Part shown: positions 911 through 61,517 of the stretch, piece by piece
Layout: every line of letters begins with the position of its first letter
How positions within the stretch are numbered: position 1 is the stretch's first letter
DNA from: Dendrolimus kikuchii
Taxonomy: Eukaryota; Arthropoda; Insecta; Lepidoptera; Lasiocampidae
Direction of reading: 5' to 3'
Assembly: GCA_019925095.2 (NCBI GenBank)
Contig: CM034412.1
Location: 2,604,001 to 2,668,000, forward strand
Length of the DNA: 64,000 nucleotides
Position numbers and translations under genes: made by a program
The notes under the pieces: generated by a model
What the model was told of the DNA's origin: nothing
Databases searched by the model: none
Seen by the model: the letters and a program-made list of their open reading frames with translations, nothing else

Positions 911-1261
911 CCATCAGTCACCAGTCAAATATAGATTGTAGAAATTAAATGGGCATCTCAATTGACAGCGTTATGTAATGGAAATCCAAACTACCCTCAC
1001 ATACAACAGCACAATGAATTTACCCTTTCACCCTGCAGGAACTGTCACAAGCAATCGCCCCTAAACCAACTATCTACAATACATAGGACCCACCCGCCGG
1101 ATATTGGTAGAAAATTTCCATAACCTTTTCTAAGTGCCAGGCTTTTTGTCATATGTACCTTTTTGGATTCAATTTACATTATTGGAGTGGGACCCAAGTC
1201 CTAATGTCCTACTTTATGAAAACGTACATGTTTTGCAATTATATTAAAAAGTAGACTTACA
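911..1261. other. No gene seen; intergenic
   Basis: This stretch shows no convincing coding frame, RNA gene or copy of the other repeat families in the window. Confidence 0.5.
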
Positions 1262-4083: not shown

Positions 4084-4660
4084 GTTCACGCCGCCGGGAG
4101 CGAACGAATGACGCTTCGAGAATAACAGAATAATAATCTGAAATATTATAATCAAAGTTTATTAAACTAGAATGATCACAATTACGATATTAAATATTGC
4201 ACAATAATACACAGATATATTAGGACAACTCCAAGAGTTGCATCCACGCTTGTCAGGTGTCGAGAAGCAATTAGCCCTTCAAGAATAGTGCGATTATCAA
4301 GCAGTAATTATCGACCACATTGTATTATGTGCTCCTCGTCCAAGACTACCAATGTAAACTGTCAGTCGTAGACTTGGTTGTAGACTCGTAGACTGTAGGT
4401 TTAAGACTGCCCCTCCTCTGCCCAAACACCGCGTATTTTATAGGTCCTCGTAGCGCGCCGCAGTGACACCATCCGGTAATGCTGTGGCGCCACTTCAGTT
4501 ACACTTCCTTCATAAAACCATCTTCCGCCATACGTATTAACTTCCTACATACGGTTACTCCATTTCCGATATCCGTTAGCTATATATTTATAAGATTCTG
4601 TTTCGGTAGTGAGAATAATGCAACATACCTCTGTTCTTATCAAATTTTTTGTCCATCCAA
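4084..4660 (-). repeat. LTR-like repeat, minus-oriented copy
   Basis: This is the reverse-complement counterpart of 2290-2995. Shared landmarks are 'gctaacggatatcgg', 'ggcgcgctacgaggacctgt' and the terminal 'ctcccggcg...gtgaac'. The two copies diverge by many substitutions, so they are old and probably separate insertions. Confidence 0.55.
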
Positions 4661-4760
4661 AGGTTGTCTGGAAGAAGTCGCTAATAGCGACAAGACCGCC
4701 TATTGTATTGTAAAATTTTATTTCTGTTAACTGTATTTTTTAAAAACACAATAAATCATA
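4651..4760 (+). mobile_element. LINE 3'-end repeat (family T1)
   Basis: It holds the family hallmark, a short hairpin 'tcgctaatagcga' followed by 'caagaccgcc', then an AT-rich tail with 'aataaatc'. The copy at 28110-28641 shows that this tail lies downstream of a LINE reverse-transcriptase C-terminus. Confidence 0.65.
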
Positions 4761-9826: not shown

Positions 9827-9838
9827 AACTCCATTAAT

Positions 9839-10108
9839 GATGAAAGAATGACTAAACAGATATACAATGCAAAAGTGGATGGATGCAGAAGTCGTGGAAG
9901 GCCACGACACACCTTCCATGATCAAATTGATCGTGTACTAACAGAAGGTGATGTCAGGAGCCTTAAGAACAGACGAGCGTGCATGACAAGAGTTATGAAT
10001 GTCAAAGAGGCAAGTGAGGTGTGTAAGAATAAGCCTAAATAGCACTCTGTTGTTCGTGCCTACCCCGCAAGGGAACTGGCGTGAAGTTATGTATGTATGT
10101 ATGTATGT
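9839..10108 (+). mobile_element. 5'-truncated RTE-type LINE 3' end, with 12-bp TSD
   Basis: It encodes the end of the RTE protein (NAKVDGCRSRGRPRHTFHD and on) and terminates in four ATGT units. The target aactccattaat is repeated at 9827-9838 and 10109-10120. The protein frame carries an early stop (AAATAG) where the copy at 14594 reads on. Confidence 0.9.
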
Positions 10109-10188
10109 AACTCCATTAATTCTTCAAAAAGTGATTCTGTAACATACTTCTGTACAAAACTTATAAAAAATAGGATTTCAGATATAAA

Positions 10189-11265: not shown

Positions 11266-11563
11266 AATTTTGGCTTACAGGAACCTTTTATTTTATTATT
11301 ATGAATAATAATTGACTTGGAGTCTCAATATACGGGACCTCAAAGGTCTACCGGACCGATATGGTATTAGTTTTGAGCAATCCAGCCGGCAGGCATAAAC
11401 CAGGTCCGTTGCTGTAGAGCTGTGGCTAATAACCAAGAGAACTCTATGAATTTGTAAAAAGATTTGGTATTTATAGGCAATTACTGCTGATCGACATTTT
11501 GGAAATCTATGTCAATGAGATGTTTGACTCAGCAATAAGTGCCTATTGCATAGGGTTGTAACA
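11266..11563 (-). repeat. 3' LTR (3'-truncated)
   Basis: Read on the minus strand it starts TGTTACAACCC directly after the polypurine tract and matches the 5' LTR without gaps for 291 bp (11266-11556). The terminal 38 bp present in the 5' LTR (21372-21409) are missing and TATA-rich DNA takes their place. Confidence 0.88.
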
Positions 11564-12106: not shown

Positions 12107-13979
12107 CTAATATATATGTAAATTTCTCCTCAAACTCGAGGGAGATTCTTCCGAGTTTTCAGATACTTCAAATGCTCTATTCTGAATCTGAAGATTTGTT
12201 TGGGTATTAGGCTTAGCATAACAATTATTGAATATTTTTATACAACAACCAGGCTCATTTTGGGTTGTATCTCGTCTTGGTTTCTTACAACATTTCTTAT
12301 AAATAGTAAAAGACATATAAGCTAAAACACATACAGACAAGATTGTTGTAATTCCGCTAAAATAGTTTCCATATTTAATGTGGTAAGGTTGATTTTCTAT
12401 TTTCTCTATTTCGTCACTGAACTGATTTAATCTATGTGTGACATAATGCAAGGAATCTAAATCGATGTGAGATAATTTAATAGGAGTTAAATATGGAATC
12501 GTATTATTTATCCTTTTCTTGGAACAGCAATCATCTTCTATAATATTAAAATTTGGAGAAGGTAAATACAGTTTAGACTCATACTCTGTAGATGCAACAA
12601 ATTGTAGAAGATTATGAAAAGCCTTACAGCCTTTAGGAACCTTGAGGATTCCTGTTCCAACAATATCGTAGTCACTAAGAGTATTGTTACATTTAACAGA
12701 TAGTTTAGTTAGATCAGACTGTACATATAACCACTTATTATTATTAAGTTTTTGCCAAACGTCAATATCACTAATTATTACTTTATAATCACAAGGTTTT
12801 GGTAATTTGTTTATATGTTTAGTTAGGATTATCACTTCACAAATTGGATTTGTTGCGGTAGGATGCACATCACTTAGTTTGCACAGATAATATTCTTTTG
12901 TTACACTTTTGCACTCACTCGTAGAGTCCATTGTTGAGTACATTAATTTATCATCGGTTATAGCAAGAAATCTAGTAGTTGGATTGATCATAGCAAAGGA
13001 ATGAGGATTATTTATATCATGCGGAGTAGGGAGAGCAAAAATATGATAGAGATTGTATTCTTGTAAGTTTATTAACGGAATTCTTATGACGAATACTAGT
13101 TTAGATCCATTAACAAAGCTAGAAACTGATGAGATATCTAGGAGAGTGTGCATATTTTCTATGCTTAATGAGACTGGGAAGTTTTGAGCTATAATATTTT
13201 GGTTGGAACTTAGTTCATTATATAATTGAACTGGGGATAAAATAGAAGGATGAATTATGTTTTGTTTTCCGAACAGAATTGCATCTATAATGTCTTCAAG
13301 GTTAAAATTTAAAGTTATTAAAGAACTTTCTATTGCGCTAAAGGTTAAAGATAGATAAGAAGAAGTTTCTAATTTGGAAGTTGTTTGCAAAACGGTTTCT
13401 AAAATTGTATCTAATTTACCCATGTTTTGATTTAATATTTGTTCATTATCATTTAGTCTTCTAATTGTATTATTAAAAGTATCGATAGCGGAAGAGATTA
13501 CGTGAATGTTATCTTTCATTAAAGACGATAGATGTCTCTGATCGTCTTGGACGGCATTGATAGCGTCAGAGAAGGTTTTTGCATCATCTTCATCTAAGGA
13601 TCCGAATAACTGTTTAAGAATAGGTCCGCCAAAACCGAACCACGAAGATCTTTTAATACGATTTTTATTTGTGAGATGTGATACAGCTATAAAATTATTT
13701 TCTACGTTAACTAGGAGAGTTTCTAACGGATTTAATGTGTTAGAGCAGTCTGTTTGAATTTTACTTGATTTATAACTATTACAGGTTGTTTTAACGGTAT
13801 TTATTATATTTTTAATATTTTCTATATGAGGTTGTATGTAGGAGAAATCTGTAAAAGTGACCATGTTCCAAAAACTATTATAAAACCTTAAAGTACCTAG
13901 ATTTTCATAGTATAGGCCTGGACTGTTTGGGATTGGCGATATTAGTCCTGAGTCGGAGATGGCACCTGGCGTGATGGCC
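12107..13979 (-). CDS. env: Envelope glycoprotein (Baculo_F / errantivirus env type)
   Basis: Membrane fusion glycoprotein of an insect errantivirus-like element. The open frame from the first ATG (13864) has 585 codons. Residues 69-72 form a furin-type RIKR site, followed by a hydrophobic glycine-rich stretch (SSWFGFGGPILKQLFG, 73-88) typical of a fusion peptide. A transmembrane segment lies near residues 502-522, followed by a cytoplasmic tail of about 60 residues with several Cys. There is no signal peptide at the ATG. The frame is open upstream to a CAG|GG acceptor-like site at 13980/13979, so env is probably translated from a spliced subgenomic RNA whose leader exon supplies the N-terminus. 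The env exon overlaps the last codons of the pol frame. No break is seen within the frame. Confidence 0.88.
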
Positions 13980-14046: not shown

Positions 14047-14562
14047 TTACACTGTTACATTGCTATTACCATGAACTGCCGTGACTTGGTAAGGACCTTT
14101 CCATATAGGAGACAAGGCTTTACGCAGTCTATGGTGGTATTTTATATACACCATATCTCCAACATTATAAGATATTTCTCTAGTGTGCTGATCATAGTAG
14201 TGTTTTGATCTTTCTTTACTTCTAAGAATATTTTCGCGAGCTATGTTTCTTGTATTAATTAATCTGTGTTTTAAATTTTTAATATAATCGGGATAAGTGA
14301 CAGTAGGGTTTATGTCATAGATAGAACTTGGTAGGTAAGGTTTACATCCGAATAAAAGTTCATGAGGACTAAAATTTGTGGTAGAGTGAGTTGTTGAATT
14401 GTAGGATATCAGTGCAGTAGGGAGATATTTATACCAGTTGTCTTGATTATCATTTACATAGGATTTAAGATATTCCTTGAGAGTGCTATGGCTTCTCTCA
14501 AGTGCACCATTGGTTTGGGGGTGATATGGAGATGAGAATAAGTGTTTAATTTTAAAAAGAGA
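14047..14562 (-). pseudogene. Gypsy integrase, C-terminal part only
   Basis: The frame reads from the late catalytic core (SSPYHPQTNGALERSHSTL, containing the catalytic Glu) through the C-terminal domain with the GPYQVT motif. The zinc-binding domain and both catalytic Asp residues are missing, removed where the RTE block joins. An in-frame TAA at 14047-14049 ends the frame inside the C-terminal domain; 34 more open codons follow to the next stop at 13942-13944. The upstream end is fused to the ATGT tail of the RTE, which reads as repeating Met-Tyr-Val-Cys codons. This cannot be an active integrase. Confidence 0.9.
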
Positions 14563-17040
14563 CATACATACATACATACATACATACATAACTTCACGCC
14601 AGTTCCCTTGCGGGGTAGGCACAAACAACAGAGCGCCATTTAGGCCCATTCTTACACACCTCACTTGCTTCTTTGACATTCATAACTCTTGTCATGCACA
14701 CTCGTCTGTTCTTAAGGCTCCTGACATCACCCTCCGCTAGTACACGATCAATTTGATCATGGAAGGTGTGTCGTGGCCTTCCACGACTTCTGCATCCATC
14801 CACTTTTGCATTGTATATCTGTTTAGTCATTCTTTCATCATGCATTCTTTCCACATGCCCGAACCACCGGAGCATTCCTTTCCTTACCTTCACCCCGACA
14901 CTCTCTTTCAGACCAACTCTCTTTCTTACTTCGGTATTACGAACGCGGTCCGCGAGCGTCACTCCGCAGATTTTGCGCAGTGCTCGCATCTCGACCGCGT
15001 TTACTCTACTTTCATGCTCTTTCTTCCATACCCAACTCTCGCTTCCATACGTGAGCGTAGGTACCAGCACCGCGTTGTGTACGGCGAGCTGGGCCTTCTG
15101 GCTGAGGTTCTTAGCGCCTAGAAGTTTACCTAACGCTCCATTTAAACTATTCCCCAAATTCACTCTTCTTTCTATATCAGCGGTGTACCTTCCATCCCTG
15201 CTAAAAGCACATCCAAGATATACAAACTCATTCACTTGCTCCAGCATAACATCATCGACCATTATCCTTGCATTCGTTCTGGTTTCTTCTCTTTCAAACA
15301 CCATAACCTTTGTTTTCTTCGCATTCAAATGTAAGCCTCTCGCCTGACAGTCATCTTTCATCATTGTGACTAGTGTTTGCAGTTCTGATGGCGATTCGGC
15401 TAAAAGCACGGCATCATCCGCATAAAGCAAGGTGCTTACAACTCGATCTCTTCCAACGTGATCTCGGATGCTGACTCCTCGGAGTCAGTCACAGACTCAG
15501 TCGTGGTGCCAGCATCCGGGATATCATCATACATTTCTCTAAAATATTCACTCCATCGCGCTAACACCTCTTGTGGGTTAGCAAGAACGTCCCCTGCTTT
15601 AGATTTTATTCTTTCCATTCTGGAAGCTGACGAACAACCCCGAGACTTCTTAACCTCTCTCCAAAAGAGTTTGGTATTCGCCTTGAAGTTCTCCGTCAGC
15701 TTCTCTTCTTCTTTCAATTTTATACTTTCGCGCTTCTCTTTCACTAAAGCTTTGGTTTCGTTCTTGCAGAGGCGATAAATTTCTTTCTTCATCTCTTTCA
15801 TACTGTCATTCTGTTGCAAAGAAGCAACATAATCCAGCCAGGCTTTTCTCTTTCTCTCTACGCTGGATTTAACATCCGCGTCCCACCATTCATCACCTTT
15901 CGTTGTTATGTGCCTCTTTGCGCATCCACATGCTTCTTTTGCGCTTTCCACTATACTTTCTTTCATACTATCCCAGTCATTATCCACATCTAAGTCGGAG
16001 AAGTCCGCTTTTGCAAGCCTTTCTTCGACTAGGCGCGCATACATACTCCTTACACTAACATCTTCCAATTTTTCACACTTTATTCTTTCAAGCTCCCCGA
16101 AATTGGTACGCACTCGCCAGTGTCTCCACTTCCTGAAAAGGCCCACAAACCGGCTTATCACCAGGTAGTGGTCCGTTTCAAGAGTGGGGCCTCTGTAGGC
16201 TCTTGTATCCATTATTGTGTTTCGGAGGCGACTATCTATTAAAATCAGATCAATCATACTTTTCTGATCATTCATTCCCCATGTATACGTGTGAATATCC
16301 TTATGATGGAATAAGGTGTTCGACACAAGCAAGTTTCTTTCCATGCATACGTCTATGATTGGCCTACCAGCATCGTTCACTCTCTTGTCACCATAGGGTC
16401 CAAGGACAGCCTCAAGGCCGTCTCGTTTGGTGCCCACCCAGCCATTAAGATCACCACACATAATTATTCTTTCATTCCCTTCAGCCAGATCCAGAATTTC
16501 TCTCACAGACTCCCAAAACTTCTCGAGTTCTTGGGGATCCGCTGAGCTTACGGGAGCATAAGCTGCGACCAGAAAAACTCGCGTAATCCCCAGTTTTAGA
16601 CGGACCCAGAGAAGTCTCGGGTTCACCAGACAATAGTCTTTTACTCCAGACACAAAGCGGGTTGAGAGTACGACGCCTACCCCCCCACTTGCACGCTCGT
16701 CCAGGTCCACGCCGGACCACAGAGCAAGCATGCCACCGGGGAGGTCATCGATGTCGCACCCCTTCCGCTTTGTCTCTGTCAGACATAAGGCATCCAGGCT
16801 TCTCTCATTCATTATATCAATCATTTCGTCCATCTTATCTTTCATTCCACCTCTCACATTCCACGTGCCTATACGGCACTCTGCTCCTCTCGACCCGCCA
16901 GGTTTGGCGCTGCGTGAAGGGTGGCGGCCCCCTTCGCCGCATGCGCGAGAGTTCACACCGACGGGGGCGCATCGGTGAGCGTCGCCTGCGGGGGACGCCC
17001 TATCGTGCACTGCACGTGTGTGAACTCGGGTCAGAAAGTT
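14563..17040 (-). mobile_element. Internally deleted RTE-type LINE inserted in gypsy pol
   Basis: The minus strand carries a short leader, a complete apurinic-type endonuclease, then an abrupt jump to the YADD region of a reverse transcriptase, its C-terminal part, and an ATGT tail. The fingers and most of the palm are missing between 15436 and 15430. No target duplication flanks it, and about 200 codons of gypsy integrase are gone, so insertion was accompanied by a deletion. The upstream limit (about 17030-17045) is estimated from where gypsy-like protein gives way to RTE leader sequence. Confidence 0.88.
14594..15432 (-). pseudogene. RTE-type reverse transcriptase, C-terminal part
   Basis: About 278 codons beginning at the catalytic LYADDAVLLAES motif. 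They continue through the thumb-like region ending RSRGRPRHTF and stop just before the ATGT tail. Within this part the frame is intact and YADD is conserved. The N-terminal RT motifs are absent because of the internal deletion, so no functional polymerase can be made. It follows the endonuclease frame by a few bases, in a different frame. Confidence 0.88.
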
Positions 17041-19937
17041 ATTTCTTACTTCTTTTAATACTGCAAAGATATCTCTATAAGTGACAGAGTCATAGTGATG
17101 GACTTTAGTAAAAAGATGAAGATAAGTTTTATTATTTATTTCGGAAATTTTAATATTATGCAATTCTCTTTCAGAGTTTTCAAAGTCATTTCTGTTTTCT
17201 AAAAGGTTTAGTATATCTCGACAGTAGGGATTGGAGTCATCTAAGTCAATGGATGTTGGGTAGGCTATGTATGGACACGAGGATTCAAGTAAATTTTGGT
17301 TAAATTCTGTTATTCGAGTATTAAAAACTGTAGGGGATGAACGTGTTCTAATATAGGATTCATAGGTTAAGTTATCATTAAGATCTATATCTTCGATATT
17401 ATGTATAGGCGGTCTGGATAAGGCGTCGGCGTTACTATTTAATTTTCCTGGTTTATACACAATTTCATAATCAAAATCTTCTATTTTTAATCTCCAGCGT
17501 AATAACTTACTACTAGGATCTTTGCAATTCATAAGATACACAAGGGGTTTGTGGTCTGTAACGATTTTGAATTTTCTCCCATAAAGATACGGTCTGAATG
17601 TTTTTGTACCGTATATAACTCCTAAAAGTTCTTTTTCAGACACGCTATAATTTCCTTCTGCTTTGTTTAAAGTACGGGAAGCATAGGCTATGGGTAGGTC
17701 ATTGCCTATTTCACCTTGCGATAGAACTGCACCAATTGCATATTCGGAAGCATCAGTGGTTAAGATGAAAGGTTTCGAGAAGTCAGGATATTGGAGGATA
17801 GGGGCGTTAGTAAGCATTGATTTAAGAGAGTTGAATGCTTCTTCCTGTTGATGTGACCAGGTGAAATCTACATCCTTTCTTAACAGGGAAGTTAGTGGCT
17901 TAGTGATTTTAGAAAAGTCTTTAACAAATTTCCTATAATATCCTATGAGTCCCAAGAAACTTTTAATATGTTTGGGTGTTCTGGGTGTAGGATAGGATAC
18001 TACGGCTTCAACTTTATCGGGATTGGGAGATACTCCTTTGTCTGAAATTATATGACCTAGATAGGCGACTTCGCGACGAAGAAACTCGCATTTGTCTGGC
18101 TGTAACTTTAGATTATGTTTTCTTAAGGCATCGAATATTAATTCAAGTTTAGAGATGTGAGACTGGAGATCATGAGAATAGATAATAACGTCATCTAGAT
18201 AGATAAAGCAATGTAAACCCTGTAGACCGGTAAGGACTGTATTCATGAGACGTTGAAAGGTTGCAGGAGCATTTTTTAGTCCAAAGGGCATTCTAGTGTA
18301 TTCAAAGTGGCCATTTGGAACTGAGAAGGCGGTTTTGGGAGAGTCTTCTTCAGCCATTTGAATTTGATGAAAACCGGAGGCGAGATCCAATGTAGAAAAA
18401 TATTTACTGTGACCTAGTTGGTCTAAGATTTCGGTTATGTTAGGAATAGGATAAGCATCTCCAATGGTAATATCATTAAGTTTTCGATAGTCTACTACGA
18501 TTCTCCATTTCTTTTGACCGGAAGCGTCTTGTTTTTTTGGAACTACCCAAATTGGGGATGACCATGGGGAACTAGAAGGTTTAATAATGTTTTGATTCAA
18601 CATTTTCTGTATCTGCTTATTTACTTCTTCTTTATGGCATTCTGGATAGCGGTAACTTTTTACATGGATTGGTTGTGAACTAGTAGTTTTAATTTCATGT
18701 TTAACAGTGTTAGTACAAGAGAGATGATCACCATCAAGGTAAAATAAATCGGAATATTCGTGGCAAAGAGATAGGAGGACTTTAGATTCTTCTGAGTTAA
18801 GATGAGATGTTCTTATTTGGTTCCGTACTTCCAAAGCTCGGTTATGATCGGAAGTTATATTATGTATACTATTAGACCTTAGAATATCACATGGTAGGAG
18901 TTCAACGCAAAAGGTTTGTATATTTATTTCATTATTTGTAGTATTAAGAATGGACACATTAACGTGTTTATTGGATTTAAGGGATGTGAGGCAACTGGAT
19001 AGGTATACACCCTTTTGAATCTCAGACTTTTCAACAAACCCGGATGTAATTTCTGGATTAGTTACTTTGCATTCTATCATCATTTCGGAACGAGCTGGTA
19101 TTGTATATTGGGGTTTAGTAAAATGAATTTGTAATGTGCCTTTATCAAGATGCAGAGTATTATTTCCGTATAGGATATTGCAGTTATTGTTTCTTAGAAA
19201 ATCATTACCTATAATTCCGTCAAAATTGAAACTTAGAGATTCTGAAACTAGATGAATTTTACTGAATATTGTTTCAGAGTTATCGAGCTTGAAATCTAAT
19301 TGAAAGTGCCCAAAACTCTCAGAACATGGGGCATTTTCATCTATACCTTTGAACTTAACCTTTTCTGTTATAAGTTTAGGATGTGTGACTAAAGAAGATT
19401 TTTTTATTAAAGAAATACTAGAGCCTGAGTCAATCAAGAAAACCAGCGGCTTATTTGAATATTGAGATTTTATATAGACATGCGGTAAGTGAATTTTATC
19501 GTTATAATGAATTTTATAAATTGTCTCGTTATTCTTATAAGAATTTGTGGACTTTGTATTATAAGAATTCGCAGATTTAGTATTACGGGTATAGGAATTA
19601 GTAGAATTTTTATTATTGGTATAAGATTTAGTAGACTTAGAATTATTGGTATAAGATTTATTAGACATAGAATTATTGGTATAAGATTTAGTAGAGTTTT
19701 TAGAACCAGTGTTTTTAATAGACGAGTTTCCTATCTGGGGCTGGTTACCCTGTCGTATAACTCGGGATTCAGTGAGCCGTGAAGGGAAGAAGGAGTCGTG
19801 ACTATTTGTTCTGTCTGTCGGTAACTTATTGGTATGGCAATAAAGGGAATCAGAATCGTTAGGAGGTATTTTACTTGGTAGCGCGTCGGTTTGTGTAGCA
19901 GATTCCACATGACGCGGTTGCGGAACCCTATTTAGTA
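15436..19937 (-). CDS. pol: Chimeric pol: gypsy protease-RT-RNase H fused in frame to an RTE endonuclease
   Basis: One open frame of 1490 codons counted from the GTG at 19908, and open back to the frameshift site in gag. Protease: FLIDSGSS, catalytic Asp 160. Reverse transcriptase: LDLASGFHQ (Asp 508) and YLDD (570-573). RNase H: Asp 719, Glu 760, Asp 784. Gypsy sequence ends near residue 960. From about 1010 to 1255 the frame encodes an RTE apurinic-type endonuclease with WNVRGG, LTETK, GDLNGWVG and TDHYLV motifs. It stops where the RTE internal deletion begins. Residues about 70-127 are low-complexity SYTNN-type repeats. Pol is reached by a -1 frameshift. Expected function is polyprotein processing and reverse transcription; any role for the endonuclease is untested. 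Confidence 0.9.
19560..19695 (-). repeat. Tandem repeats coding SYTNN-like units in pol
   Basis: A 30-bp unit recurs ('ggtataagatttagta' on the plus strand), giving decapeptides with the core K-S-Y-T-N-N upstream of the protease. Later units degenerate. It probably forms a flexible linker between gag and protease. Confidence 0.8.
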
Positions 19938-20909
19938 TAAAAAATTATCATTTTGGGGGTCTGTTGGACACTCTTGGGTCTGATCATGGTTTTCGTCTAA
20001 ATTGTGTACTTTATTTAAAGGTGGGTTAGAATTTATTTGATGATTTGTAGGGTTTGAAAATCTTTGACGATTTGTGTTATTATATTCCCTTTTACGACAT
20101 TGATTTATGTGATGACCGACTGCCTTACAATATGCACAGATAGTCGGGTTTGGTGGTGAAGTATTGGGAATGGATTGAGAAGGTCTTGGTTGGAAAGCTA
20201 CATTATGGATGGGACGGTGACGATTTGAATAGCACGATCTATCCGTGTGCCCAGGTTTGCCACAAAGACGGCATTTTGGTTTGGATTCTACGGAATTTCT
20301 TGACTGCGAGGATTGAGCATAGTTGTAGAATTTTTCTTCTTGAATAGCTAAATTAATTGCTTCGGCAAGGTTTTCCGGATTGCGGCATCTCAATATGTTG
20401 GAAATATGGCTGGGTAGCCCCAGCAAAAAGGTGTGTAAAGCCAGGTCTTCCGTATTAGCTAGTCGTCCTAGCAGTTCACCCTGATTGATGGTTGAATGAG
20501 ATATGTCCGTCTGTAGTCGTGTAAGATGAGTTTCTAGACGTGTACTATATTGCAGAGCACTTTCGTTAGGTTTCATTCTACAGTTTTGGAGGTCTAATAA
20601 TAGATGGTTACGGTGTTTACACTCGCCAAAGTTACTTTTTAAAAATTGTTTCAGGTCCGACCAATTACTGAAAACTTTAAGGGAACATATTGCTTCTGCT
20701 TTACCTTCTAATTGGGATAGTATAAATTTAAATAATATTTCGTATTGATTGGGGTTAATTAAGTTAAGGGCATTCTCGCAGTTACGTAGAAACGGGGATA
20801 ATTTATTTCTATCTCCATCGAAGGTTTTTATGAAGCGGGTGAGGTCGGTAAAATTCATTTTTACGGTATGGGAGGATATAGGGGAGTGATCGATTTTTGG
20901 GTTTGCCAT
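19932..20909 (-). CDS. gag: Gag polyprotein
   Basis: Structural protein that packages element RNA. From the ATG at 20909 it has 325 codons (a TTG six bases upstream is also open, but the ATG is preferred). The first 210 residues form a capsid-like helical region with the retrotransposon-gag pattern around 'FKFILSQLEGKAEAI'. Two CCHC zinc knuckles follow: CRLCGKPGHTDRSC and CAYCKAVGHHINQC. The C-terminus is polar and Asn-rich. The stop lies 4 bases beyond a T-TTT-TTA heptamer that connects to pol in the -1 frame. The frame is intact. Confidence 0.92.
   Translation of the reverse strand: MANPKIDHSPISSHTVKMNFTDLTRFIKTFDGDRNKLSPFLRNCENALNLINPNQYEILFKFILSQLEGKAEAICSLKVFSNWSDLKQFLKSNFGECKHRNHLLLDLQNCRMKPNESALQYSTRLETHLTRLQTDISHSTINQGELLGRLANTEDLALHTFLLGLPSHISNILRCRNPENLAEAINLAIQEEKFYNYAQSSQSRNSVESKPKCRLCGKPGHTDRSCYSNRHRPIHNVAFQPRPSQSIPNTSPPNPTICAYCKAVGHHINQCRKREYNNTNRQRFSNPTNHQINSNPPLNKVHNLDENHDQTQECPTDPQNDNFLY
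19938..19944 (-). promoter_or_regulatory. -1 ribosomal frameshift heptamer T TTT TTA
   Basis: The minus strand reads TTTTTTA aligned with gag codons AAT TTT TTA TAC TAA. Slipping back one base leads into the pol frame, which is open through to the GTG at 19908 and beyond. The heptamer type is the one used by HIV-1. A downstream stimulatory structure was not assessed. Confidence 0.75.
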
Positions 20910-20979
20910 GATCAATTATAAATAAAGAAATGGAACTATAACAGATAATAAACTTAAAATGCACTCACAGTATAAACAT

Positions 20980-21371: not shown

Positions 21372-21703
21372 TGTTAGTCCCGAGCACTTATATGTTTTAA
21401 AAAAAAAACAATTTTGGCTTACAGGAACCTTTTATTTTATTATTATGAATAATAATTGACTTGGAGTCTCAATATACGGGACCTCAAAGGTCTACCGGAC
21501 CGATATGGTATTAGTTTTGAGCAATCCAGCCGGCAGGCATAAACCAGGTCCGTTGCTGTAGAGCTGTGGCTAATAACCAAGAGAACTCTATGAATTTGTA
21601 AAAAGATTTGGTATTTATAGGCAATTACTGCTGATCGACATTTTGGAAATCTATGTCAATGAGATGTTTGACTCAGCAATAAGTGCCTATTGCATAGGGT
21701 ACA
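21372..21703 (-). repeat. 5' LTR
   Basis: 332 bp on the minus strand, from TGTACCC to GGGACTAACA. The outer start lacks four bases relative to the 3' LTR (TGTTACAACCC). Over the 291-bp region shared with 11266-11556 no difference is visible by eye. A TATA box and a polyadenylation signal are present. Confidence 0.9.
21612..21619 (-). promoter_or_regulatory. LTR TATA box
   Basis: The minus strand reads CTATAAATACC. About 175 bases downstream is AATAAAATAAAAGG (near 21431-21442), a polyadenylation signal, consistent with U3-R-U5 order. Confidence 0.65.
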
Positions 21704-30211: not shown

Positions 30212-31509
30212 TCAGCTGATACCCGCCCGCTTCGCGTGCCGTAAAATCCGTTCTTTGCTGACCTCTACTTGGCGAAAGGAAGGTCCATGCCAAATTTCAA
30301 ATCTATAGGTATTATAGTGCCTGAGATATCGTGATGAGTCACTATATACGTGGATTTCAATTATAGGCAGACGTTGTCCTGCTCTGAAAAAATAAAAATC
30401 TAAGACCCGATCCCAGCGCCAGCTACCGGCTCCAATTGTGGATTTAAACCATCCGGGAACCCACTCAAACATACAAAAACAAAATCACCAAAATCGGTCC
30501 AGGTGATTAGGAGGATACTAGAACCCGATCTCAGCGCCACCTACCGGTTCTAATTGCGAATCTAAACCATCCGGGAACCCACTCAAACACACAAAAACAA
30601 AATCACCAAAATCGTTCCAGGTGATTAGAAGGATTCTAGAACCCCATCCCAGCGCCACCTACCGGCTCCAATTGTTGATTTAAATCATCCGGGAACCCAC
30701 TCAAAGACACAAAAACAAAATCACCAAAATCGGTCCAGATGATTAGGAGGATACTAGAACCCGATCTCAGCGCCACCTACCGGTTCTAATTGCGAATCTA
30801 AACCATCCGGGAACCCACTCAAACACACAAAAACAAAATCACCAAAATCGTTCCAGGTGATTAGAAGGATTCTAGAACCCAATCCCAGCGCCACCTACCG
30901 GCACCAATTGTTGATTTAAACCATCCGGGAACCCACTCAAAGACACAAAAACAAAATCACCAAAATCGGTCCAGGTGATTAGGAGGATTCTAGAACCTGA
31001 TCTCAACGCCACCTACCGGTTCTAATTGCGAATCTAAACCATCCGGGAACCCACTCAAACACACAAAAACAAAATCACCAAAATCGTTCCAGGTGATTAG
31101 GGGGATTCTAGAACCCGATCCCAGCGCCACCTACCTGCTCCAATTGTGGATTTAAACCATCCGGGAACCCACTCAAACACACAAAAACAAAATCACCAAA
31201 ATCGTTCCAGGTGATTAGGGGGATTCTAGAACCCGATCTCAGAGCCACCTACCGGTTCTAATTGCGAATCTAAACCATCCGGGATCCCACTCAAACACAC
31301 AAAAACAAAATCACCAAAATCGTTCCAGGTGATTAGGGGGATTCTAGAACCCGATCTCAGCGCCACCTACCGGTCCAACGGGATAAAAAGTATCCTATGT
31401 CCGTCTCCTGGTTCTAAGCTACGTCCCCACCAATTTTCAGCCAAATCGGTACAGTCGTTCTTGAGTTATAAATAGTGTAACTAACACGACTTTCTTTTAT
31501 ATATATAGA
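30212..31509 (-). mobile_element. Helitron-like element carrying a satellite array
   Basis: On the minus strand it begins TCTATATATATAAAAG after an A and ends GGGTATCAGCTGA before a T. The last four bases differ from the canonical CTAG by one or two changes. Most of its length is the 118-bp array. No coding sequence for a transposase is present. Confidence 0.65.
30395..31375. repeat. 118-bp satellite alternating as 236-bp dimers
   Basis: 'catccgggaacccactcaaa' recurs at exact 118-bp steps (about 30447, 30565, 30683, 30801, 30919, 31037, 31155, 31273). Monomers alternate strictly between type A ('ccaattgtKgattta') and type B ('tctaattgcgaatcta'), so the true unit is 236 bp. It is not a CRISPR array: repeats are contiguous and there are no unique spacers. 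Confidence 0.93.
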
Positions 31510-61456: not shown

Positions 61457-61517
61457 ATCATACATACATACATAACTTCACGCCAGTTCCCTTGCGGAGT
61501 AGGCACGAACGTCACGA
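61457..61517 (-). mobile_element. 61-bp RTE 3' end with 9-bp TSD
   Basis: Only the ATGT tail and about 45 bp before it were copied ('acttcacgccagttcccttg'). The target tattgacat flanks it at 61448-61456 and 61518-61526. Confidence 0.82.

Follow-up and report, generated by a model that had tools for sequence, protein, structure and literature searches.

A long reading frame joining gypsy and LINE domains in Dendrolimus kikuchii, very probably the product of a single nested insertion

The window considered here is a stretch of 64,000 nucleotides of the lepidopteran Dendrolimus kikuchii (assembly GCA_019925095.2, contig CM034412.1, positions 2,604,001 to 2,668,000 of the forward strand), and positions given below are window positions unless a locus or an element is named. 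Its minus strand contains an open reading frame (ORF) of 1490 aa (15436-19908, GTG start in the ORF translation), in which the protease motif, reverse transcriptase (RT) and RNase H of a Ty3/gypsy long terminal repeat (LTR) element are followed by the endonuclease of a long interspersed nuclear element (LINE). The frame is open already from 19944 and comprises 1503 codons from stop to stop. It is a chance in-frame joining of two elements, very probably left by a one-off insertion of the LINE into the gypsy element, in the same orientation and with a target-site deletion. The parts that meet at this place are as follows.

14564-17035, minus strand: RTE-type LINE copy, nested in place of 626-627 bp of integrase sequence and delimited by empty sites in 7/7 fetched gypsy loci and by other LINE copies that start within 2 bases of the same place.
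15444-17035, minus strand: LINE 5′ module (element positions 1-1592), apurinic (AP)-type endonuclease (Exo_endo_phos) and linker, 100% identical to the full-length copy L063.
14591-15443, minus strand: LINE 3′ module, comprising the end of the RT and the C-terminus (element positions about 2287 onwards), identified from the ORF, Pfam and comparison with L063.
14563-14590, minus strand: LINE 3′ tail, (TATG)7, with its last G common to the target, from the tail and the empty-site comparison.
17036-19944, minus strand: portion of the 1490-codon frame contributed by gypsy (protease motif, RT, RNase H, beginning of the spacer before integrase), from Pfam, a motif check and genome matches stopping at 17036.
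14047-14562, minus strand: C-terminal integrase remnant of gypsy with an NGALERSH stretch; rve_3 and MLVIN_C matches, both below the Pfam cut-off.

Pfam matches in the fused frame include RVT_1, two gypsy RNase H models and Exo_endo_phos, and the translation contains the motifs DSG, YLDD, WNVRGG, TETK and GDLNGW. The TDH of the endonuclease lies within LETDHYLVIS; an earlier TDH, the first in the frame (residue 784), is part of RNase H. An earlier note on this DNA had reported a 1490-codon frame, these motifs and a junction near 17030-17045; the ORF call and the translation bear out the frame and the motifs, and the joint falls at 17035/17036, within the range expected.

The searched assembly comprises 705,495,508 bases, and in it a 36-base pattern spanning the 5′ joint occurs, with up to three mismatches allowed, at a single place, which is this locus. 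A search with 16800-17300, in which the best 40 of 957 candidates were scored, gave 39 places besides the window; these match 17036-17300 only and all stop at 17036 (identity listed as 100%, rounded). Six of seven fetched gypsy loci match 17036-18800 at 99.77-99.94%, and in L007, which has a deletion further on, the nearest 1187 bases match at 99.92%. All seven are empty sites: they continue through 626-627 bp of integrase sequence, contain no LINE and then rejoin the window at 14563, where the integrase remnant picks up again behind the LINE. The part missing from the window corresponds to residues 701-908 of the D. kikuchii protein P0007, for which Pfam gives a zinc finger at 753-809 and a core at 825-923; judging by its motifs, it presumably comprises the integrase zinc finger and most of the core, including the first two catalytic aspartates. 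The remnant matches residues 909-1114 of P0007 at 99.5%, and this match continues to 13945, beyond the end of the ORF. A single accidental insertion, one of the two origins offered by the earlier note, is supported by the unique 5′ junction, for which a search at other loci had been proposed, and by the integrase stretch kept in all seven fetched gypsy copies. The expectation that integrase would be intact in other copies holds in part: the stretch is present in 7/7, but it is open only in 5/7, with a stop in L002 and a frameshift in L005.

The nested LINE and the gypsy element lie on the same strand. LINEs of the RTE clade encode an AP-type endonuclease and an RT in one ORF. The full-length copy L063 has such a single ORF of 1044 aa with Exo_endo_phos and RVT_1, and the family also has the simple-repeat tails, (TATG)n, and the short duplications (11/17 truncated copies) of RTE elements; we take the LINE, from its architecture, to belong to this clade. 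The window copy is without the stretch from position 1593 to about 2286 of L063. This gap accounts for the end of the fused frame directly behind the endonuclease part, and for the 229 residues by which the RT is short relative to protein P0001. The ORF of the RT fragment (14594-15430) lies past the stop of the fused frame, in another frame. This copy is thus unable to make a complete integrase or a complete LINE RT, and any movement of it would need factors in trans. The window contains two more 5′-truncated copies of the same LINE (484-832 and 9837-10109), which have the same tail and 12-base target-site duplications, and a third additional LINE 3′ end (61459-61510) with no duplication.

For a wider view of the family, the first 600 bases of the LINE were used in a search that gave 41 matches from the best 40 of 954 candidates, 40 of them at 100% and one at 97%. 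Stretches from 39 loci (L030-L068) were fetched; L068, in which there was no exact 60-mer for orientation, was left out, and the remaining 38 were analysed together with the window copy. The 5′ ends of these 39 copies form four groups, with at least 56 (7/39), 45-49 (8/39), 10-11 (12/39) and 1-2 bases (10/39, including the window) before position 1; the two remaining copies have 7 and 4 bases. All the groups fall within a match to an HDV (hepatitis delta virus)-like ribozyme at the LINE 5′ end. The Rfam model CPEB3_ribozyme matches twice in locus L048: at 1085-1158 (+), in an inverted host copy, with 35.1 bits (gathering score 35, E 9.6e-7), and at 4596-4669 (-), at the start of the L048 copy itself, with 33.4 bits, below gathering (E 3.5e-6).

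Target-site duplications are distributed unevenly in this family. Nine of the 39 copies have no 3′ end and were omitted from the duplication test; among the 30 kept, L030 and L037 lack a (TATG)n tail, and the tail used for L045 is that of an adjoining LINE piece. No duplication of at least 8 bases was found in any of these 30 copies with a 5′ module and a readable 3′ end, the match length being 3.1 as against 3.15 in shuffled flanks. A wider search of 28 copies likewise gave no long duplication adjoining the element (the tail used for L061 is that of a neighbouring copy). In contrast, 11 of 17 5′-truncated copies in the fetched loci and the window have a duplication (Fisher p 7e-7). Two of these 17, both in L042, call for caution: one of the 11 duplications consists of a TA run and might not be genuine, and one of the six copies without a duplication, which runs from position 1633, might be what remains of an interrupted copy. 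The missing duplication is therefore not peculiar to gypsy. Target loss was seen in two cases: 627 bp of gypsy in the window and 191 nt of the inverted LINE copy that is the host at L048, a copy that has further gaps besides. This suggests that copies reaching the 5′ half joined the target with a deletion, a mode that explains the lost integrase without a gypsy-specific event.

The order of events and the part played by target-primed reverse transcription are what we infer from these comparisons. An RTE-type LINE would have hit a young env-bearing gypsy element in the same orientation. Reverse transcription would have started at the boundary between the (TATG)n tail and the target, the 3′ junction, and would have ended in a target-site deletion instead of a short duplication; the zinc finger of the integrase and the greater part of its catalytic core lie in the 627 bp lost. 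The LINE frame would by chance have come into register with the gypsy frame, for which the odds are one in three in a same-strand insertion, and the 1490-codon frame would be the consequence. Target-site deletion is a described outcome of target-primed reverse transcription (PMC2881922). Against this account, the 627-bp loss could in principle predate the insertion, though it is absent from 7/7 fetched gypsy copies.

According to the second origin offered by the earlier note, the locus would be the founder or a member of a hybrid lineage with the LINE endonuclease in place of integrase. The frame that stays open across the joint with its endonuclease motifs would fit such a lineage, as would the identical LTRs and hence recent integration of the element, but its 5′ junction occurs at one place in the assembly, all seven fetched gypsy copies have the integrase stretch, and the LINE part carries a broken RT and its own 3′ tail, neither of which a functional swap needs. 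Bridging proteins were not found either. None of the 43 proteins found with frame residues 820-1490 (the best 7986 candidates being scored), and neither of the two found with residues 900-1070, aligns to both the gypsy domains and the endonuclease; given the number of candidates scored, this absence is strong, if incomplete, evidence. The gypsy protein P0041 extends 15 residues beyond the joint at 39% identity. A distant DNA search for the joint among plasmids found nothing, and a literature search for an LTR element with a LINE endonuclease gave none in titles and the beginnings of abstracts, with subscription literature mostly outside its scope. On this evidence the hybrid lineage is extremely improbable. 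For the related idea of a swapped DNA-cutting enzyme, the open frame is the sole support, and the architecture recurs in 0/43 and 0/2 of the proteins found.

Three other origins were considered for the joined structure. The RT in a gypsy particle might have jumped onto packaged LINE RNA and back, the chimeric cDNA then being integrated as a unit; the lack of a target-site duplication, the loss of 627 bp and the one shared base at the 3′ junction would agree with this. LINE copies outside gypsy, however, are also without duplications, one of them with a similar target loss, and since they behave alike, no gypsy enzyme is needed; such template switching is improbable. An ordinary LINE insertion with a duplication, followed by a separate deletion that took away 627 bp of gypsy as well as the start of the LINE, would also leave no duplication, as the deletion would remove it. 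Yet the start at 17035 belongs to the recurrent 5′-end group of 10/39 copies, which a random deletion would reach only by luck, and a later deletion is rated as very improbable. An assembly artefact is conceivable in that both elements are high-copy and nearly identical between copies; it is still harder to credit, as both junctions show the ends expected of the elements and the published D. kikuchii assembly, according to the part of its description used here, was built on Nanopore and HiFi reads (PMC8589036). The one-off insertion with target-site deletion is retained below.

The gap in the window LINE is one case of a recurrent pattern. Among the 39 copies, 27 depart from the full-length sequence at position 1592, within 2 bases; eight are continuous there, two depart at 1551, one departs at 1561 and one ends at 867. 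Each of the 27 broken copies picks up the sequence again at a position of its own; these positions all lie downstream of 1592, in the range 1759-2910, and two of them differ by a single base. At the 23 cleanly readable joints the overlap is 0 bases in 13, 1 in four, 2 in five and 5 in one; the remaining four joints have mutations. The 5′ module is nearly invariant, with 0.46 differences per 980 bases (325 pairs, 26 copies), as compared with 3.96 per 470 bases in the 3′ module (136 pairs, 17 copies), a contrast that is partly due to selection, as identity over the first 600 bases was the criterion by which the copies were picked. Genome-wide counts are uninformative for the break: a 19-mer at 1592 was counted at 195 places, 142 of them continuous, whereas for a control at 1300 the count was 1034 places with 218 continuous. 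As the loss was larger in the control, that at 1592 can be accounted for by sequence variation alone. Splicing as the cause of the break was rejected, as there is no GT at 1593 in L063 and the 3′ breakpoints are all different. Under the ping-pong rule of slicing, an A is expected at position 1602; there is a T instead, which is weak counter-evidence to slicing at 1592 guided by PIWI-interacting RNA.

For the fixed end at 1592, end-to-end template jumping between two pieces of LINE RNA is preferred. Template jumping has been described for R2 and LINE-1 (PMC3414825, PMC13174262), and under it one would expect the joints to be blunt, the acceptor end to be fixed, the donor ends to vary but to lie downstream only, and the 5′ ends to fall at structural stops. 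The second template, taken up once the RT runs off a variably trimmed 3′ piece, would be a 5′ RNA piece whose 3′ end is fixed at 1592, 11 nt past a hairpin; the cDNA would end at discrete stops in the HDV-like ribozyme, and its joining to the target would involve a deletion. A strong hairpin is predicted within the 92 nt that precede 1592, ending 11 nt short of this position, and our guess is that trimming down to it fixed the RNA end. When downstream sequence is included, in a fold of 192 nt, the pairing differs, which counts against the hairpin. A 160-nt fragment across the LINE joint of the window folds better than 200/200 shuffles (z -3.69). A single source locus for the 5′ piece and a loop-out within one RNA are two further candidate explanations of the 1592 end. 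The full model, in which copies of the family are often assembled from two pieces of LINE RNA and insertion has two modes (duplications for plain 5′ truncations and deletions for copies reaching the 5′ half), is tentative and is regarded as possible rather than probable.

The family resembles the RTE-clade LINEs of Lepidoptera (PMC2887409, in the parts drawn on here) in its short 3′ end, simple-repeat tail and 5′-truncated copies with short duplications; these are 8-13 bp long here, apart from the TA run, as against 6-12 in that paper. Unlike the elements in those parts of the paper, it has 5′-half copies without duplications, and most of the 39 copies are internally deleted from one fixed point. 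Joined 5′ and 3′ LINE parts with the middle missing are also found in short internally deleted elements (SIDEs), for which template jumping has been proposed (PMC3414825, PMC6740152). As far as the portions of these two papers used here go, the deletions arose several times, with break points that vary between SIDEs (in one of the two papers), and SIDEs are amplified, persisting families. In D. kikuchii the 5′ breakpoint is fixed within one genome and no single internally deleted form is amplified, the 3′ breakpoint being different in each of 27 copies. In LINE-1 chimeras with cleaved RNAs, recurrent ends are similarly ascribed to specific RNA cleavage followed by ligation or template switching; the partner there is another RNA and, in the sections consulted, the examples given have duplications (PMC13174262), whereas here the partner is the 5′ half of the LINE itself and no duplications were found. 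Among D. kikuchii gene models, one that has ABC-transporter domains, P0038 (K1T71_003263), includes a 66-residue piece matching the endonuclease of this LINE at 88% identity; the piece is probably an annotated exon derived from an insertion.

The outer element is a young, env-bearing Ty3/gypsy element. Besides the parts listed above, it includes the following.

21410-21700, minus strand: 5′ LTR, 291 bp, 100% identical to 11266-11556.
19932-20915, minus strand: gag-like ORF of 327 aa; Retrotrans_gag, Ty3_capsid and zf-CCHC match weakly, with scores below the Pfam cut-offs.
12107-13864, minus strand: env-like ORF of 585 aa, Baculo_F family (PF12259, E 1.3e-46).
11266-11556, minus strand: 3′ LTR, the identical partner of 21410-21700.

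The identity of the two 291-bp direct repeats indicates a recent gypsy integration, and their terminal letters are those of the LTRs of two other copies. The LTR pair and the order protease-RT-RNase H-integrase, in which integrase is supplied by the empty sites and P0007, are those of Ty3/gypsy. With its gag-like ORF, protease motif, RT, RNase H and env between LTRs, the element is like other env-bearing Ty3/gypsy elements with a Baculo_F envelope, presumably those called errantivirus-like, from which this copy differs in having lost most of its integrase to the LINE. A search with env against viral contigs found nothing. No 4-base repeat was seen by eye to flank the LTRs, either here or at L069/L070, the sole further copy of which both ends were read. 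As none was visible at the LTRs here, integration of the chimera independently of integrase was considered; it was dropped, since L069/L070 shares the LTR ends and likewise shows no clear duplication. The first part of the gypsy pol frame contains, at 19536-19709, five overlapping 60-base repeats, 24-30 bases apart; the peptide encoded by them is repetitive, with an abundance of Asn, Ser, Thr, Lys and Tyr. Elsewhere in the window there are tandem arrays at 30281-31406 (118-base unit) and 1162-1766 (48-base unit).

A hybrid element integrating by means of a LINE endonuclease would have changed ideas on the spread of LTR elements; the evidence is that no such element is present at this locus. 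What the locus does illustrate cleanly is the origin of long fused frames from nested insertions, frames that automatic annotation could report as new proteins. The accident itself is ordinary in kind, and the stitched LINE family is the more interesting part: it offers the testable idea that a fixed RNA end is reused as an acceptor in template jumping, and a possible link between 5′ completeness and target-site deletion.

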